DNA of 64,000 bases from contig JAUXTU010000015.1 in the NCBI GenBank assembly GCA_030679145.1, positions 1-64,000 of the forward strand. The letters are read 5' to 3'. This document shows positions 57,140 through 64,000 of the stretch, piece after piece. The position numbers and the translations under genes are program-made. Positions within the stretch are counted from its first letter, which is position 1. Each line of letters starts with the position of its first letter. The notes under the pieces were generated by a model. It searched no databases and had not been told where the DNA came from. It saw only the letters and a list, made by a program, of their open reading frames with translations. This DNA is from Bacteroidota bacterium (lineage in GTDB: Bacteria; Bacteroidota; Ignavibacteria; UBA10030; UBA8401).

Positions 57140-57502
57140 TTATTTATCGTTAATTCGGGTGGTTTTTAAGATTGCAAAGAGAATTTTAGAGAGCTCATCA
57201 CAATCATTATAAAGACTATCAAATAATTTTGCTTCAATAAAATCGGTTTCGTGAAGCAAGGAAAGCCAATATTTTGTTTCTAATGATTCTTTGTACGAGA
57301 TAGAAATTTTTGCCGAAAAATCATGATTTGAAATTGCACCATTTGCTTCTGCTACATTAGCTCCAATTGAAGTTCCGCTTTTTAATATTTGTTTAGAAAG
57401 AACAAAATCTTTCTTTTCTTGATTGAGAAATTGATATAATTTCACGATCCTTTTTGAAAAAGCGAAAGATTTTTTTGCCAGAACATTATCTTTTCTGTTC
57501 AT
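57140..57502 (-). CDS. Four helix bundle protein (23S rRNA intervening-sequence family)
   Basis: 120 residues, all helical. VLAKKSFAFSKRIVKLYQFL, FVLSKQILKSGTSIGANVAEA and SYKESLETKYWLSLLHETDF match the 23S rRNA intervening-sequence/S23 ribosomal-type four-helix bundle family. Members form oligomeric bundles of unknown function, occur free in genomes and often sit beside short repeats. Here it splits the aguB-aguA pair and is bounded by a 13-bp inverted repeat, suggesting insertion as a cassette. Confidence 0.85.
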   Translation of the reverse strand: MNRKDNVLAKKSFAFSKRIVKLYQFLNQEKKDFVLSKQILKSGTSIGANVAEANGAISNHDFSAKISISYKESLETKYWLSLLHETDFIEAKLFDSLYNDCDELSKILFAILKTTRINDK

Positions 57503-58412: not shown

Positions 58413-59645
58413 CTATGCCTTCCCAAAACAAATTGATGCGTTTGTTCCGCCGAAACCAAATCCGTTCGAAAGTGCGTAGCGTATCTCCTTTTTCCGTGCA
58501 ACATTTGGAATGTAATCAAGGTCGCACTGCGGATCAGGATTTTCCAGATTGATTGTCGGCGGAATGATCCCCTCTTTCAACGCAAGAATTGTCATCACCG
58601 CTTCAACTGCGCCGGCACCGCCGAGCAAATGTCCGTGCATTGATTTTGTTGAGCTGACCATGATTTTTTTTGAATGTTCTCCAAACAATCGTTTCACGGC
58701 AATTGTTTCTGCAATATCGCCAAGCCCTGTGGATGTTCCGTGTGCGTTGATATAGTCTATATCATTCGGTTGTAATCCGGAATGCTGCACCGCCAATTTC
58801 ATTGCACGCATTGCACCGTCGCCGTCTTCCGGCGGAGCAGTGAAGTGATATGCATCTGCTGTCATTCCAACACCAAGAATTCGAGCATAGATTTTCGCTC
58901 CGCGTTCTTTCGCATGTTCTTCTTCTTCAATAACAAATACTCCCGCACCTTCACCAAGAACAAAGCCGTCCCGATCTTTATCAAACGGACGTGAAGCTCG
59001 TTCAGGTTCATTGTTTCGTTTGCTCATTGCGCGCGCAGCACAGAATCCTGCTATACCAATTTCGGTAATGGATGCTTCAGCTCCGCCAACGATCATTACA
59101 TCAACATCTCCACGCTGGATTGCGTGAAAACCATCCGCAATTGCATGGTTGCTTGTTGCACACGCAGATACAACGCCGTAATTAATTCCCTTTGCACCAA
59201 TTCGAATTGCAAGTAATCCAGAGATCATATTGATAATAACCGCGGGAATAAAAAAAGGAGAGACCTGTTTTTGTCCCCCTGCTTCCAATTTGATCGCCGT
59301 ATGACTGATTCCAATTAGTCCGCCCGCACCTGAACCGATGATGATACCGACTCGTTCAGCATTCTCAGGAACGATTTTTAATCCCGAGTCAGCAAGGGCA
59401 TCAAGACCGGCACCAATCCCAAATTGTACGCAAAGGTCCCAGCGGTTGACCTCTTTTGCATCAAAATATTTTTTTGCATCAAAACCCTTCACTTCGGCGG
59501 CGATTTGGGTAGTAAACCGCTCTTTTTCAAATTTTGTAATGTATCCGACACCGGATATTCCGGCAATGGCATTTTTCCACGATTCTTCCACGGAAAGACC
59601 AAGCGGAGAGATCAAACCCATTCCTGTAACAACAACATTTCGCAT
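58413..59645 (-). CDS. fabF: 3-oxoacyl-[acyl-carrier-protein] synthase II
   Basis: 410 residues, condensing enzyme of fatty acid synthesis. The Cys-His-His triad is intact: Cys 162 (VVSACATSNHAI), His 302 (INAHGTST) and His 339 (KSMHGHLLGGAG, with the conserved Lys 334). It elongates acyl-ACP with malonyl-ACP. No acpP lies next to it, unlike many genomes. It starts about 260 bp downstream of the bufD-like DoxX gene, and aguB follows 11 bp after its stop. Confidence 0.95.
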   Translation of the reverse strand: MRNVVVTGMGLISPLGLSVEESWKNAIAGISGVGYITKFEKERFTTQIAAEVKGFDAKKYFDAKEVNRWDLCVQFGIGAGLDALADSGLKIVPENAERVGIIIGSGAGGLIGISHTAIKLEAGGQKQVSPFFIPAVIINMISGLLAIRIGAKGINYGVVSACATSNHAIADGFHAIQRGDVDVMIVGGAEASITEIGIAGFCAARAMSKRNNEPERASRPFDKDRDGFVLGEGAGVFVIEEEEHAKERGAKIYARILGVGMTADAYHFTAPPEDGDGAMRAMKLAVQHSGLQPNDIDYINAHGTSTGLGDIAETIAVKRLFGEHSKKIMVSSTKSMHGHLLGGAGAVEAVMTILALKEGIIPPTINLENPDPQCDLDYIPNVARKKEIRYALSNGFGFGGTNASICFGKA

Positions 59646-59902: not shown

Positions 59903-60385
59903 TTATGTCTTGTTGTTACGAAATCGTTTCAAAAATCCGTCTACAGAAAAATTCCCCGCTCCAAATATCAGAATGATAAATGATGCCAACAAATGATTGA
60001 ACGGCGTTGCCGCTACAAACGATTCTGTGTCCGAAAAAATATTCGTCAATGCTTCACGGTCATCGGTTGCATATGCCATACTTAAGATGATAATGAGCGG
60101 AAGTGTAAAATATCTCGAGCCGAATCCGATCATTAATAATATTCCACAGATCAATTCTGTTGAACCCGCTGCAATGGCATTAAGATACGGGAATGGAATG
60201 TTCAGCGAAGTGAAAAATTCTGTTGTTCCTTCAAGATTATTTAGTTTTCCCAATCCTGTTTGAAAAAAATCATAACCCCAATACAAACGGATCAATAATA
60301 ATAACGGGTGTTGTGCATATGAAAGAATGTTTGTATAAGCAGAATGAAATTTATCTGCGAGCGGTAATAATGTTGTTTTCATCAT
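59903..60385 (-). CDS. DoxX-family membrane protein (HvfD/BufD-like)
   Basis: 160 residues with four membrane helices (about 28-45, 62-90, 95-115 and 130-150). LIRLYWGYDFFQTGLGKL near the start and AAGSTELICGILLMIGFGSRY in the middle are the DoxX signature. In HvfABCD/bufferin clusters such a protein is the fourth component, of unknown biochemical role but possibly redox-linked. It is the last gene of the operon, 50 bp downstream of the DUF2063 gene. Confidence 0.85.
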   Translation of the reverse strand: MMKTTLLPLADKFHSAYTNILSYAQHPLLLLIRLYWGYDFFQTGLGKLNNLEGTTEFFTSLNIPFPYLNAIAAGSTELICGILLMIGFGSRYFTLPLIIILSMAYATDDREALTNIFSDTESFVAATPFNHLLASFIILIFGAGNFSVDGFLKRFRNNKT

Positions 60386-60435
60386 GGAATATTAATCTTT
60401 TGCGTCTTTAGTGTTTTTGCGGTGAAAAAATCTTG

Positions 60436-61278
60436 TTAACGAAGTTTTATTTTTGAAAAATATCCGCTACTTACCCACTCGTTGAACCATTCAAATAACT
60501 TCTGCTGCAATTCTTCCTGCGAATCAGGAAATTGTTCAACAAGCAATGCAATGGATTCGCTAAATGTTTTTCGCGAAACCAATGCGCTCAATAAAAAATA
60601 TTGTTGAGAAGAAAGAATATCCCAATATGTTCGGTATGTCTTTCGATAGACAACTACAAATGTTCTTTCATTTTTTATTTCAGGAACAGTCACTTCTTCA
60701 ATCACAGCATCAAGATATTCGCACACATTATGATCGAACTCAAGCATTTCTAATGCTGCAATAGGAATAAGAATCGCATGTTCCCATTGATCTGGTTGAA
60801 CCGAGGCTATTTCTTGTTGATGTACGATCGGCGATTCTTCAGCATCCATATTATTGGTGATGGAAAGCTCAAGCCGCGAGAGATCGTAAAGAAATGCTTT
60901 GTTACGCAGATCTGTTTCTTGAATGAACTGCGGAAAATATCTGCCGAGATGATTCAATGTATAACTGTGTGATGGAAATTTCTTTACATATTCTTCCGCA
61001 ACAATTCGATCAAATTCGAATTCTCCTAATACATTTTTAACTCCGGGATAATCAATTGCCATTGATTCCGTCATTCGAAGAAAGAACATTTTGCGATAGA
61101 TTCCAATCCGTTCGACAGGAGTCAATGTCTTTGATGGAAGCACATTGGCATACGCTTCGTCAAACGGCAATTCCTTTTGTGCCTGTTCGGAGTTCCACGC
61201 TTCGTCATTTGTTCCCGGATGCTCAATCACGCTTTGCATCCAGCGCTGTATAGTGGTAAGAGGAATATTATTTTCCAT
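60436..61278 (-). CDS. DUF2063 RiPP partner protein (HvfC/BufC-like)
   Basis: 280 residues. The N-terminal DUF2063 domain (about 5-105) carries the family block RIGIYRKMFFLRMTESMAID YPGVKNVLG (split here) and HLGRYFPQFI. The C-terminal half is alpha/beta (ILIPIAALEMLEFD, ERTFVVVYRKTYRTYWDIL). In known MNIO systems such proteins bind the precursor leader and deliver it to the DUF692 enzyme. Cytoplasmic. It lies 20 bp downstream of the barrel gene and upstream of DoxX, as expected for a HvfABCD-type operon. Confidence 0.85.
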   Translation of the reverse strand: MENNIPLTTIQRWMQSVIEHPGTNDEAWNSEQAQKELPFDEAYANVLPSKTLTPVERIGIYRKMFFLRMTESMAIDYPGVKNVLGEFEFDRIVAEEYVKKFPSHSYTLNHLGRYFPQFIQETDLRNKAFLYDLSRLELSITNNMDAEESPIVHQQEIASVQPDQWEHAILIPIAALEMLEFDHNVCEYLDAVIEEVTVPEIKNERTFVVVYRKTYRTYWDILSSQQYFLLSALVSRKTFSESIALLVEQFPDSQEELQQKLFEWFNEWVSSGYFSKIKLR

Positions 61279-61298
61279 TGAACAAATTGTAGTATATG

Positions 61299-62213
61299 TT
61301 AAAAAGTTGTTTGGTACTCTGTTGCAACTATATAACTCCGCGTTAACCCATCAGGTCGTATAGAACGTGTTTGAACAGGGAAACCAGCGCTCACTTCTAT
61401 GCGGTCTGTCTGATTGAGTGAATATGTACAATACAGATTCATATTAACGGTTGTTCCCTTCGAACCGGTTATTGTCAGATCGGATCCGCTGATTGTCGTA
61501 TATGAATCATCTGCAAGATGATAAATTGGTAAAATACTTGGCGTAAGAACGATAGTTGAATTTATACGAATAGGATATGAGATACGAATCAAAAGATCTC
61601 CGCTTCGTTTATAGTTATTCGTTGATGTAAATTTTCTGAATTCTGAATTAACCGGATAATCTTCTTTGAAGAACCGATTCTTGTTCTGCGATAGCGGCTG
61701 TTGAAGAGCGGCAACCATATTTATTCCGTGGAATTGACTCCCAACTCCAAGGAGAAGATCAACCGTTCCCAGACTTGATTGATAATCCATTGGAAGACTT
61801 AATCCATTAACCTCTGTATTCCCACCACTCAACGGAATTTTTAATCCAAGCGTAATAGTATTTGAGTTTTGGAGTGAATATGTTGCACTGAAAAATATAT
61901 CCGACAATCCTGATCTCTGAGTGGATTCGCCGCGCTGCGAGAGGAATGACAATTTAACATCACATCGAACATCATCGTTCAACACCCTGCCATATTCCGC
62001 ATACCCACTATACACCGCAACATTGTTATCTGCCTTACCGTGTAAAAGACCGAATGCGAAACGATTGTTTTTGTCGATTGCAATTGAGTCATCAGTGTGA
62101 GGCTTAAGACTATTAACAGTACAAAATCCTGCGTCACTACATCCTTGTGCATGAGCATGTTGTGCGATGAAAAAGAGCAATGCAAGAATAAATAATCGAA
62201 TCTGTTTGAGCAT
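61299..62213 (-). CDS. Outer-membrane barrel-like protein embedded in the bufferin-like operon
   Basis: 304 residues with signal peptide MLKQIRLFILALLFFIAQHAHAQ. The mature N-terminus GCSDAGFCT has two cysteines, possibly metal-binding or a disulfide. The rest alternates polar and hydrophobic residues with Gly/Tyr (DIFFSATYSLQNSNTITLGL, DLLLGVGSQFHGINMVAAL) and ends YQTTF with a terminal Phe, as in outer-membrane barrels of the phenol-degradation-protein/transporter type. It lies 16 bp downstream of the MNIO gene and 21 bp upstream of DUF2063, so it is part of the operon. A transport channel for the peptide or its metal is inferred. Confidence 0.72.
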   Translation of the reverse strand: MLKQIRLFILALLFFIAQHAHAQGCSDAGFCTVNSLKPHTDDSIAIDKNNRFAFGLLHGKADNNVAVYSGYAEYGRVLNDDVRCDVKLSFLSQRGESTQRSGLSDIFFSATYSLQNSNTITLGLKIPLSGGNTEVNGLSLPMDYQSSLGTVDLLLGVGSQFHGINMVAALQQPLSQNKNRFFKEDYPVNSEFRKFTSTNNYKRSGDLLIRISYPIRINSTIVLTPSILPIYHLADDSYTTISGSDLTITGSKGTTVNMNLYCTYSLNQTDRIEVSAGFPVQTRSIRPDGLTRSYIVATEYQTTF

Positions 62214-62228
62214 TTTTTATGATAGACA

Positions 62229-63164
62229 CTACAGTTTATGACTCATAGAATTGACCAATTCATTCTTCTCAACCGGCGTTAAACGCATTTTCGGTGCAAT
62301 GGTTGGTCTTGGAAGATTCATCATAGTCGGATCAGGTTTTTCATTCCGATATTTTTTAGCTTTAAGCGCTTCTTCATGAACCACATCAAATTCGGGAATA
62401 TCTTCATCCCATTCCAACAGCGTATTTCTTCCACCGGTTCGCTGATATGCGTAGCGGTATAATTCCCACACAGCATCGATCACATGATCGTTGTGAGTAT
62501 CGAGAATATGCGTTCCTTTGTTCGTATGTCCGGCCAAGTGATATTGGCAGACGAGCGACGGATCAATTCTGTCGATAAATTCTTTGGAGTCAAAATCATG
62601 ATTATATGCGCTCACGTAAATATTATTCACGTCCATCAGCATTCCGCATTGCGATTCTTCCATCAACCGCGCATGAAATTCCCATTCACTCATGGATGAT
62701 GAGGCGAATTGCGCGTAGGTGGAAACATTCTCCAGCACTAACGGACGTTCCATGAATTCCATCACCTGTTTTGCTTTGTTCACAATGTGTTTCAATGATT
62801 CTTCGGTGTACGGGATCGGAAGAAGATCGTGAACGTTGTGTGCATTCACCCCGGTCCAGCAAAGATGGTCGGAGATGTATGGAGATTTCACGCGGTCGGC
62901 GAGTGCTTTTAACAATTTTAAGTATTCAAAATTTACCGGATCGCTGCTTCCGATGGAAAGTGAAACGCCATGAAGTACAATTGGATATCGTTCTGCAATC
63001 TTATCCAAAACATATCGCACCCGTCCGCCGGATTCGAGATATGTTTCGGAGATCACTTCGAACCAGTCAACGCTCGGATTGTTTTCTAAGATATAATTGT
63101 AATGAACGCTGCGCAGTCCAACACCAAATCCAAAATCAGATAAGTTCCATTTATTAGCAGTCAT
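62229..63164 (-). CDS. DUF692/MNIO multinuclear iron enzyme (HvfB/BufB-like RiPP maturase)
   Basis: 311 residues, TIM-barrel DUF692 family. Metal-ligand regions are visible: His 65 (VLHGVSL), Asp 99/His 100 (YISDHLCW), Glu 145/Asn 146 (LENVS), Asp 178/Asn 180-181 (MDVNN), His 189, His 209/213 (YHLAGH), Asp 222/His 224 (DTHND) and Glu 251 (LLEWDEDI). MNIO enzymes use several iron ions and oxygen to modify cysteines in peptide precursors, for example to oxazolone/thioamide or thiooxazole. ATG 63164 (MTANKWNL) is preferred over 63179. It lies just downstream of the Cys-rich precursor gene. Confidence 0.93.
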   Translation of the reverse strand: MTANKWNLSDFGFGVGLRSVHYNYILENNPSVDWFEVISETYLESGGRVRYVLDKIAERYPIVLHGVSLSIGSSDPVNFEYLKLLKALADRVKSPYISDHLCWTGVNAHNVHDLLPIPYTEESLKHIVNKAKQVMEFMERPLVLENVSTYAQFASSSMSEWEFHARLMEESQCGMLMDVNNIYVSAYNHDFDSKEFIDRIDPSLVCQYHLAGHTNKGTHILDTHNDHVIDAVWELYRYAYQRTGGRNTLLEWDEDIPEFDVVHEEALKAKKYRNEKPDPTMMNLPRPTIAPKMRLTPVEKNELVNSMSHKL

Positions 63165-63248
63165 GTATTTTTCTCTCAACGTTAGAAGAACAAAGCCGTG
63201 GTAAGCGGCTCAGTTCTTGAACAACAATGGTTCGTGGTACGGGAAATA

Positions 63249-63554
63249 TTACATCGGTTTTTTGTCGCCCATTTTTGTTGAATCCATACCGCTGCAGCTA
63301 TCTTTTGATTTTGTGCTGTCTTTGCCCGTGCAACTGTCTTTCCCTTTGCAGCCGTCTTTCCCCTTACAACCGTCTTTTGCTTTTTTCATATCTTTTCCTT
63401 TACAGCCGTCTTTGCCGCTGCAGCCGTCTTTCTTTGCTTCTTTTTTAGCTTTAGCTTTTGCAGGTGCTTTGTCTTGAGCATTGGCAATTGATCCGCTCAA
63501 TAAACCGGCAACTGCGGCGGTCATCAATAATTTGGAAAATGTGTTTGTTTTCAT
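63249..63554 (-). CDS. Bufferin/HvfA-like RiPP precursor with hexad-spaced cysteines
   Basis: 101 residues. A Sec signal peptide (ending SIANAQ, residue 27) serves as N-terminal leader. The core is Lys/Asp/Gly-rich with six cysteines at 45, 51, 63, 69, 75 and 87, each in a D-[GS]-C-x-G-[KM]-D unit. The spacing is always 6 or 12, so all lie on one six-residue register with two degenerate units (near 57 and 81). Bufferins and HvfA use EGKCG instead. A strong AAGGAG precedes ATG 63554. The DUF692 gene follows. The likely product is a modified periplasmic or secreted metal-binding peptide. Confidence 0.87.
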   Translation of the reverse strand: MKTNTFSKLLMTAAVAGLLSGSIANAQDKAPAKAKAKKEAKKDGCSGKDGCKGKDMKKAKDGCKGKDGCKGKDSCTGKDSTKSKDSCSGMDSTKMGDKKPM

Positions 63555-63559
63555 AACAA

Positions 63560-63609
63560 CTCCTTTGGATGATTAGTGAAAAATTAATTTAATGAAACAG
63601 ACAATTATA
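63560..63609 (-). promoter_or_regulatory. Possible promoter -10 and strong RBS of the precursor gene
   Basis: AAGGAG lies at 63560-63565 (as CTCCTT on plus), six bases before ATG 63554. A TATAAT hexamer is found at 63609-63604 on the minus strand, but without a good -35 at normal spacing. This may allow separate expression of the precursor from the upstream heme gene. Weak evidence for the promoter, strong for the RBS. Confidence 0.4.
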
Positions 63610-63631
63610 TCTTTAATAGGGTCAATTTTTT

Positions 63632-64000
63632 TTACGGATGAGCATCATTCATTCGTGTATAATCTATACCAATAGCATGGCAGCCAATGCAGCCTGCTCC
63701 CTTTTTACTAGCCGAATACAGGATTGAACCTGTTGGAGAGATTTCAGCCCACACCCAGCCGTTAGCATCTGCATTTTTATCGCCGGTTCTTTTAAAGAGA
63801 AAAACATACGTGGTTAACGCATTGTTTGTATAGAGTTCTTTAACGATGAGCGAAGAATCCGGAAAAATTGTGCCGGCCTTTACTTTACCGGCTCCATCCA
63901 AATATTTTGCTGCAATGGAATTATATCGTGTGCGAAGTTTTGCATCAGGATGCCCTGAGTTCCCCCCTTTGGAAATTGTATCCGAAGTATTTTTGTAAAA
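63632..64000 (-). CDS. Cytochrome P460-like heme protein, partial at window edge
   Basis: C-terminal 122 residues; the frame is open to base 64000, so the start lies outside. A TTG at 63901 is internal, not a start. The sequence has a c-type heme motif CIGCH (GAGCIGCHAIGIDY) near the end and a P460-like domain pattern before it (HPDAKLRTRYNSIAAKY, FPDSSLIVKELY, NGWVWAEISPTGSILYSAS). The protein is probably exported and binds one heme covalently. It lies 77 bp upstream of the precursor gene in the same direction. A role in redox or peroxide handling alongside the peptide is inferred. Confidence 0.78.
   Translation of the reverse strand, partial: FYKNTSDTISKGGNSGHPDAKLRTRYNSIAAKYLDGAGKVKAGTIFPDSSLIVKELYTNNALTTYVFLFKRTGDKNADANGWVWAEISPTGSILYSASKKGAGCIGCHAIGIDYTRMNDAHP

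Follow-up and report, generated by a model that had tools for sequence, protein, structure and literature searches.

The stretch of DNA analysed here, the window, comprises 64,000 nucleotides from a Bacteroidota bacterium of the class Ignavibacteria (genome G000), and is part of contig C18 (219,880 bases, extending past the window edge) of an assembly that totals 3.83 Mb on 123 contigs. At its end six genes lie head to tail on the minus strand, encoding in order a P460-like haem protein, a cysteine-rich precursor peptide, an MNIO (DUF692) enzyme, an outer-membrane barrel, a DUF2063 protein and a DoxX protein. The genes are separated by 77 bp (P460 to precursor), 87 bp (precursor to MNIO), 15 bp (MNIO to barrel), 20 bp (barrel to DUF2063) and 50 bp (DUF2063 to DoxX). 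An earlier note on this DNA had placed these genes here, tightly packed on the minus strand, and this is borne out for all six; the barrel matches no Pfam family. With the flanks, which lie partly outside the window, the order on the minus strand is a TlpA-like thioredoxin, DUF6029 and an Omp28-like protein; a response regulator; a histidine kinase; an extracytoplasmic function (ECF) sigma factor; a zinc anti-sigma factor; DUF6789; the six genes; and a beta-ketoacyl synthase. The operon and its regulators, from the DUF6789 membrane protein through the zinc anti-sigma factor, ECF sigma factor and histidine kinase to the response regulator, continue outside the window on C18 to about 68 kb.

The precursor gene (63249..63554, minus strand) encodes a peptide of 101 residues with a Sec signal peptide, recognised by eye, and has the character of a ribosomally synthesised and post-translationally modified peptide (RiPP). 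Each of its six cysteines is in a DGC[SK]G or DSC[TS]G context, giving three CKG motifs as well as CSG and CTG; relatives carry four to eight cysteines. Homologues are found directly upstream of an MNIO gene in G254 (79% identical), G258, G251 (where the start is cut off by the contig edge), G145 and G153, and in G108 a classic Buf2-like precursor, HACKGMNECKGKGGCK...SCKGKNACKGKGGC, is linked to the MNIO gene. The Buf2-like precursor of Thiothrix has the same C-x5-C units with C-S/K-G. Against the BufA2 model NF050166 the window precursor scores 19.2 bits, its relatives 13.7–20.6 and the G108 precursor 42.9, and with a cut-off of 60 an assignment of the window precursor to BufA2 proper was set aside. 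The EGKCG repeats of the HvfA type were not found in the precursor or its relatives, and a Pfam search of the precursor gave no match to the DUF2282 domain of Buf1. From its sequence the DGCxGKD repeat precursor is best read as a tandem derivative (DG/DS-C-K/S-G-KD) of the Cys-Lys (Buf2) group described previously (PMC13097082).

Between the precursor and MNIO genes there is an RNA hairpin (63186..63218, minus strand; z = −2.8 relative to shuffled sequences). Hairpins of different sequence occupy the same position in G254, G258 and G108. It is probably an expression-ratio or processing hairpin, and its placement would match a common arrangement that yields more peptide than enzyme.

The MNIO gene (62229..63161, minus strand), for the precursor-modifying enzyme, matches PF05114 with 346.8 bits (cut-off 25) and the NCBIfam model MNIO_BufB (NF050167) with 341, above the curated cut-off of 310, while against the HvfB model it scores 250, under the cut-off of 360. 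The iron-ligand motifs, which the earlier note had singled out for checking, are kept (His64, Asp98, His99, Glu144, Asn179/Asn180, His208, Asp221, His223 and Glu250); all the His, Asp, Glu and Asn motifs common to the window protein and the DUF692 structure 3BWW are also present in close relatives. The Asn, Asp and His of the DVNN and DTH motifs, the equivalents of Asn175, Asp242 and His244 of HvfB as assigned by motif, are retained. Further along the operon the DUF2063 partner (60436..61278, minus strand; PME type 1/HvfC-like) matches PF09836 with 61.9 bits (cut-off 27.2), and the DoxX-family membrane protein (59903..60385, minus strand; HvfX-like) matches PF07681 with 69.7 bits (cut-off 23.6). 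The more specific models score below their cut-offs: 45.7 of 142 for HvfC and 16.9 of 27 for NGO1945_C, the RiPP recognition element-type C-terminal domain, with the DUF2063 protein, and 67.7 of 80 for HvfX with the DoxX protein. A phmmer search of the PDB with the DUF2063 protein gave no match.

Amongst the genomes surveyed, an MNIO above the Pfam cut-off is rare, with 11 genomes out of 197 in the class, 5 out of 98 in the order and 25 out of 395 in the phylum. The linkage of precursor and MNIO in six relatives (G254, G258, G251, G145, G153 and G108), together with the BufB score above its cut-off and the conserved iron ligands, identifies the core of the operon as that of a captophorin system, so that the HvfABCD/bufferin-type core proposed in the earlier note holds, as does its expectation that DGCxGKD precursors would be linked to the MNIO in related genomes. 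As the order precursor, MNIO, DUF2063, DoxX recurs in relatives, the arrangement is more than chance.

The closest known systems are those of the captophorin Cys-Lys group (Buf2/BufA2; PMC13097082, PMC12452194), which share the Sec-exported cysteine-rich precursor, the BufB-type MNIO, DUF2063 and DoxX in the same order, as well as the C-x5-C arrangement with C-K/S-G units seen in the Thiothrix and G108 precursors. The window locus differs in its tandem DG/DS-C-xG-KD modules, the barrel between MNIO and DUF2063, the P460 gene in front and the adjoining two-component system. The HvfABCX/oxazolin operon of Haemophilus (PMC13419390) has the same four core gene types, but HvfA carries the EGKCG repeats that are missing here, and no barrel, P460 or ECF sigma factor has been described for it. 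Some buf operons of otherwise classical make-up have genes, termed adjamnio-VI, lying between those for MNIO and DUF2063 (PMC12452194); as judged by description only, those are found in Buf1 operons and were proposed as possible modification enzymes, whereas the window locus has an outer-membrane barrel at this position. A published survey of MNIO gene clusters (PMC12452194) mentions neither a barrel nor a haem protein, in agreement with the earlier note, which had put these two genes, both real, outside the described core. A search of the literature turned up no relevant paper on MNIO operons of Ignavibacteria or on any that include a gene for an outer-membrane barrel.

At some other loci the MNIO may have a different type of substrate. 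On a Pseudoalteromonas plasmid (L212:609-2936) and at L107:5096-7186 and L108:5624-7723 a large ferritin-like-looking protein of about 700–775 residues directly precedes the MNIO. The C-terminal part of the Pseudoalteromonas protein has a bufferin-like CKGSNDCKAQGGC stretch, so the substrate of an MNIO may be the tail of an enzyme. In L101–L106 the ferritin-like gene and the cysteine peptide are mostly separate genes. Downstream of the MNIO locus of G070 (L020:9700-11914) a regularly repeated segment (CGLIADFLNFE or SKLRKFAIKPQ, depending on the direction of reading) resembles an array of spaced repeats, of CRISPR or another type.

The barrel gene (61299..62213, minus strand) encodes a predicted outer-membrane β-barrel of 304 residues with a signal peptide and a β-meander. 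In an alignment of 23 family members the N-terminal sequence C25-S-D-A-G-x-C31 (CSDAGxC), at the mature N-terminus, is invariant. The barrel has no Pfam family of its own and none of the 23 members matches the CopB/PcoB copper outer-membrane family, and a search of the PDB with the family profile found nothing; a scan of viral contigs found no further usable relatives. A low-confidence AlphaFold model (made from two sequences; mean predicted local distance difference test score 42.9) had as its top PDB matches FapF, the Pseudomonas outer-membrane channel for an amyloid polypeptide (E 8e-6, TM-score 0.40–0.50, about 12% identity), with no evident sequence relation. The likeness is a lead only.

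The P460-like gene occupies 63632..64000 of the window on the minus strand, and its product is a predicted c-type haem lipoprotein with a CxxCH haem-c motif. The earlier note was right that it precedes the precursor and is a real gene; it runs past the window edge, however, spanning 63632-64138 on the contig, and its Pfam score is borderline (PF16694, cut-off 27: 28.1 bits for the piece in the window, 26.8 for the whole protein and 17.6 for the copy in G258). CxxCH and its flanking residues are conserved in all aligned copies, seven rows in total, and comparison with the PDB gave chance matches only.

Within the family the locus is highly variable and is anchored by the beta-ketoacyl-ACP synthase (58413..59645, minus strand), a fixed flank outside the system whose orthologues, 82–90% identical, stand beside differing versions of the locus in congeners. 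The contig of G258, of the same genus, carries ECF sigma factor, P460, precursor, MNIO, barrel, DUF2063 and DoxX. In G254, of another genus, the order is Omp28, regulator, kinase, ECF sigma factor, anti-sigma factor, DUF6789, P460, a 219-residue outer-membrane-like protein, precursor, MNIO, DUF2063 and DoxX, while G251 has precursor, MNIO, DUF2063 and DoxX on a separate short contig. Three further congeners keep P460 without an MNIO: G255 has regulator, kinase, P460, a Sec peptide with three CPHC(S/T)KDKKCDMH repeats, the barrel and the synthase; G259 has regulator, kinase, P460, a Sec peptide with one CPHCTKDKKCPMH and the synthase, with no barrel; and G256 has ECF sigma factor, anti-sigma factor, P460 and the synthase. 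In G043 and G181 none of the locus genes is found beside the synthase. The assemblies of G255 and G259 are 79% and 82% complete; the locus is contiguous from regulator to synthase in both, so the absence of the MNIO at this place is real. The different outer-membrane-like protein of G254 (L100:6459-7118), which has no Pfam match and lies between P460 and precursor in an operon that has no barrel, is possibly a stand-in.

Peptides with the CPHC(S/T)KDKKC(D/P)MH unit thus occupy the precursor slot behind P460 (L154:2600-3022, plus strand, three copies; L155:2405-2674, minus strand, one copy), and to judge by their sequences they are apparently an alternative, unmodified metal-binding type. The exchange of a thiooxazole-type precursor for such a peptide between the same P460 gene and the same flank suggests that the function of the slot is metal binding, without specifying the metal. 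All versions of the locus that encode one of the two peptides, and whose sequence is complete on the P460 side, have P460. It also occurs in genomes with neither peptide, which indicates that P460 is a feature of the locus and not of the MNIO system.

Two regulatory systems adjoin the operon. The ECF sigma factor is paired with a short anti-sigma factor (about 80–95 residues) in which an N-terminal cysteine and HxxxCxxC are invariant in eight homologues; its score of 48.7 against NF052368 is just below the cut-off of 50. An orthologue of the sigma factor is present in all four MNIO genomes of the family and in two of the 18 others (p = 0.002, uncorrected for relatedness). A promoter-like motif, TGT(C/A)AGG(A/T)(A/T)T-N-CTAA, lies 67–103 bp ahead of the first gene of the operon in G000, G254, G258, G256, G145 and G153, with CCTAT replacing CTAA in G256 and G258. 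In its strict form, TGTCAGGATTC-N-CTAA, it occurs once in the G000 genome, at this locus. Some matches to TGTNAGG...CTAA fell inside the ECF coding sequence and were discarded. At L002:10076-10104 (minus strand), L021:7122, L022:7666 and L111:4227 (minus strand) the DNA coding for sigma region 4 resembles the predicted promoter (TGTNAGGAAT...CTAA), which is probably a coincidence of the conserved peptide (C-K/Q-E-L...T-N).

A direct repeat, GTGATA-N5-GTGATA, precedes P460 in G000, G254, G255 and G259; a second copy stands before the response regulator gene in G000 and upstream of the regulator in G259. There are three exact copies in the whole G000 genome, two at this locus and the third inside a coding region. 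The repeat was not found in G256 or G258, where the sequence examined has no regulator–kinase pair (the G258 contig starts at the ECF gene). We infer that the box is bound by the response regulator, and the motifs as a whole predict double control of the operon by the ECF sigma/zinc anti-sigma pair and the two-component system. A copy with one mismatch lies at C18:71344-71360 (L169), just before the ATG of the TlpA-like gene that heads tlpA-DUF6029-Omp28, possibly part of the same regulon.

Taking these results together, it is probable that the locus is a bufferin/captophorin operon that makes a cysteine-rich, copper-chelating peptide of the cell envelope, with the barrel and P460 serving the same function, under double control. 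In characterised systems the MNIO and DUF2063 proteins turn cysteines into 5-thiooxazoles, with a loss of about 4 Da per cysteine and a band at 305 nm, and prefer the precursor bearing its Sec signal; copper is bound by the peptide after export (PMC13419390, PMC13097082, PMC12452194). By analogy, the two proteins would oxidise the six cysteines to thiooxazoles in the cytoplasm, with the Sec signal as leader, and the modified peptide would then be exported by Sec to chelate excess copper in the envelope. From the genomic context, the barrel may be the route by which the metal, the peptide or a complex of the two crosses the outer membrane, and redox or nitric oxide chemistry of the same stress may fall to the haem lipoprotein; DoxX would act as in other captophorin operons. 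The ECF sigma factor would be held by the cytoplasmic zinc anti-sigma factor, and the two-component system would act through the probable box ahead of both P460 and its own gene. The locus in close relatives carries either the MNIO-made peptide or the unrelated, apparently unmodified CPHC...CDMH/CPMH peptide, which fits buffering of metal in the envelope. Copper as the metal, and the roles of the barrel and P460, are the inferred parts of this scheme.

Several observations weigh against a common function for all six genes. The barrel family is found in 58 of the 197 genomes of the class, mostly as a solitary gene, nearly always distant from an MNIO and with varied neighbours; 58 genomes with a barrel and 11 with an MNIO would be expected to overlap in 3.2, and three have both, which rules out the barrel as an MNIO-dedicated protein as a general rule. 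The MNIO clusters of G254 and G251 have no barrel, and in the tree the G258 barrel joins that of G195 rather than those of G000 and G255; a separate recruitment in G258 is nevertheless not established, as a tree holding the three together is not rejected (approximately unbiased test, p = 0.112). P460, with its borderline score, is found in genomes without an MNIO. These findings are also what would be expected if this were an ordinary bufferin operon with the barrel and P460 as passengers in a variable locus, playing no part in peptide function, an explanation that we think possible but rather doubtful. In two divergent species the barrel sits in the same slot with a translational type of packing (in G258 again between MNIO and DUF2063, with zero spacing between the genes), and G255 keeps barrel and P460 together after, or without, the MNIO. 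Moreover, in G256 and G258 the ECF promoter stands ahead of P460, as does the direct-repeat box in G000, G254, G255 and G259.

Strong matches to the barrel are limited, in the taxonomic family, to three of the 22 genomes and to this locus (in G000 and G258 between MNIO and DUF2063, in G255 beside the CPHC peptide). That a family so common and so unlinked to MNIO has its strong matches here confined to the locus speaks for a channel of general type that was recruited to a locus for envelope metal peptides, and against a part of the MNIO machinery. A more specific proposal, in which the barrel would be a channel dedicated to taking a thiooxazole metallophore or its copper complex through the outer membrane, recruited from this common Bacteroidota family and usable by two unrelated kinds of metal peptide (MNIO-made or CPHC), is speculative and on present evidence unlikely. 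If it were true, the barrel would be the missing outer-membrane step of the captophorin system. Whether Sec-exported captophorins are retained in the periplasm or leave by an unknown route is open, as has been stated for oxazolin (PMC13419390), and a barrel within the operon makes the question testable.

Alternatively, the biosynthesis could be the same with a main job other than copper: gold, mercury or other thiophilic metals, or hypochlorite and methionine oxidation stress. The Neisseria sigmaE/MseR operon NMB2140-2145 (PMC2893595) resembles the window locus in having an ECF sigma factor and a short cytoplasmic zinc anti-sigma factor (HxxxCxxC and a cysteine close to the N-terminus) next to an operon of MNIO type, which also has a gene of the DoxX family; three other genes in it had no known function at the time. 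In Neisseria the operon is transcribed together with the sigma and anti-sigma genes and the regulon includes msrAB, while the window locus adds the two-component system, P460 and the barrel. The gonococcal ngo cluster has since been shown to make the thiooxazole peptide gonophorin (PMC13097082). G061 (L160:5627-10088) has a related pair of ECF sigma and zinc anti-sigma genes, after which come genes for a DsbD-like thiol-redox protein, a methionine-rich Sec peptide (MMKDGKMMMMKGGK) and an MsrA-like protein, paralleling the Neisseria sigmaE–msrAB link, and gig operons are named for gold (PMC12452194). The characterised relatives bufferin 1 and oxazolin, on the other hand, bind copper (PMC12452194, PMC13419390), and a main role other than copper would seem improbable.

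That the peptide is an unmodified thiol or metal buffer, with the MNIO acting elsewhere or dispensable, is very improbable: the MNIO-less congeners do have, at the position of the precursor, a CPHC peptide that looks unmodified, and FonBC, the one enzyme tested, does not process a cysteine followed by a charged residue (PMC13097082), which places C-K motifs outside its substrate range, but the precursor is consistently linked with a BufB-type MNIO and DUF2063, and BufB2 enzymes naturally go with precursors of the Cys-Lys type.

The operon is therefore a lineage-specific envelope metal-peptide variant of the known captophorin type and not a new class. To call it a new type of metal-handling peptide system, as the earlier note did, goes too far, since the peptide is a variant of the Cys-Lys/Buf2 group, the barrel is common without an MNIO and P460 also occurs without one. 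The novel features are a Cys-Lys precursor of repeat type in this part of the Bacteroidota, the presence of the barrel inside the operon, the exchange of peptide type at one locus and the double control. Close relatives with MNIO-made and unmodified metal peptides between the same flanks provide a natural comparison, along with two predicted regulatory sites.

Elsewhere in the window, at 57140-57502 on the minus strand, a gene identified by eye for a 120-residue four-helix-bundle-like protein, of the 23S intervening-sequence protein type, lies between the genes for agmatine deiminase and carbamoylputrescine amidase.

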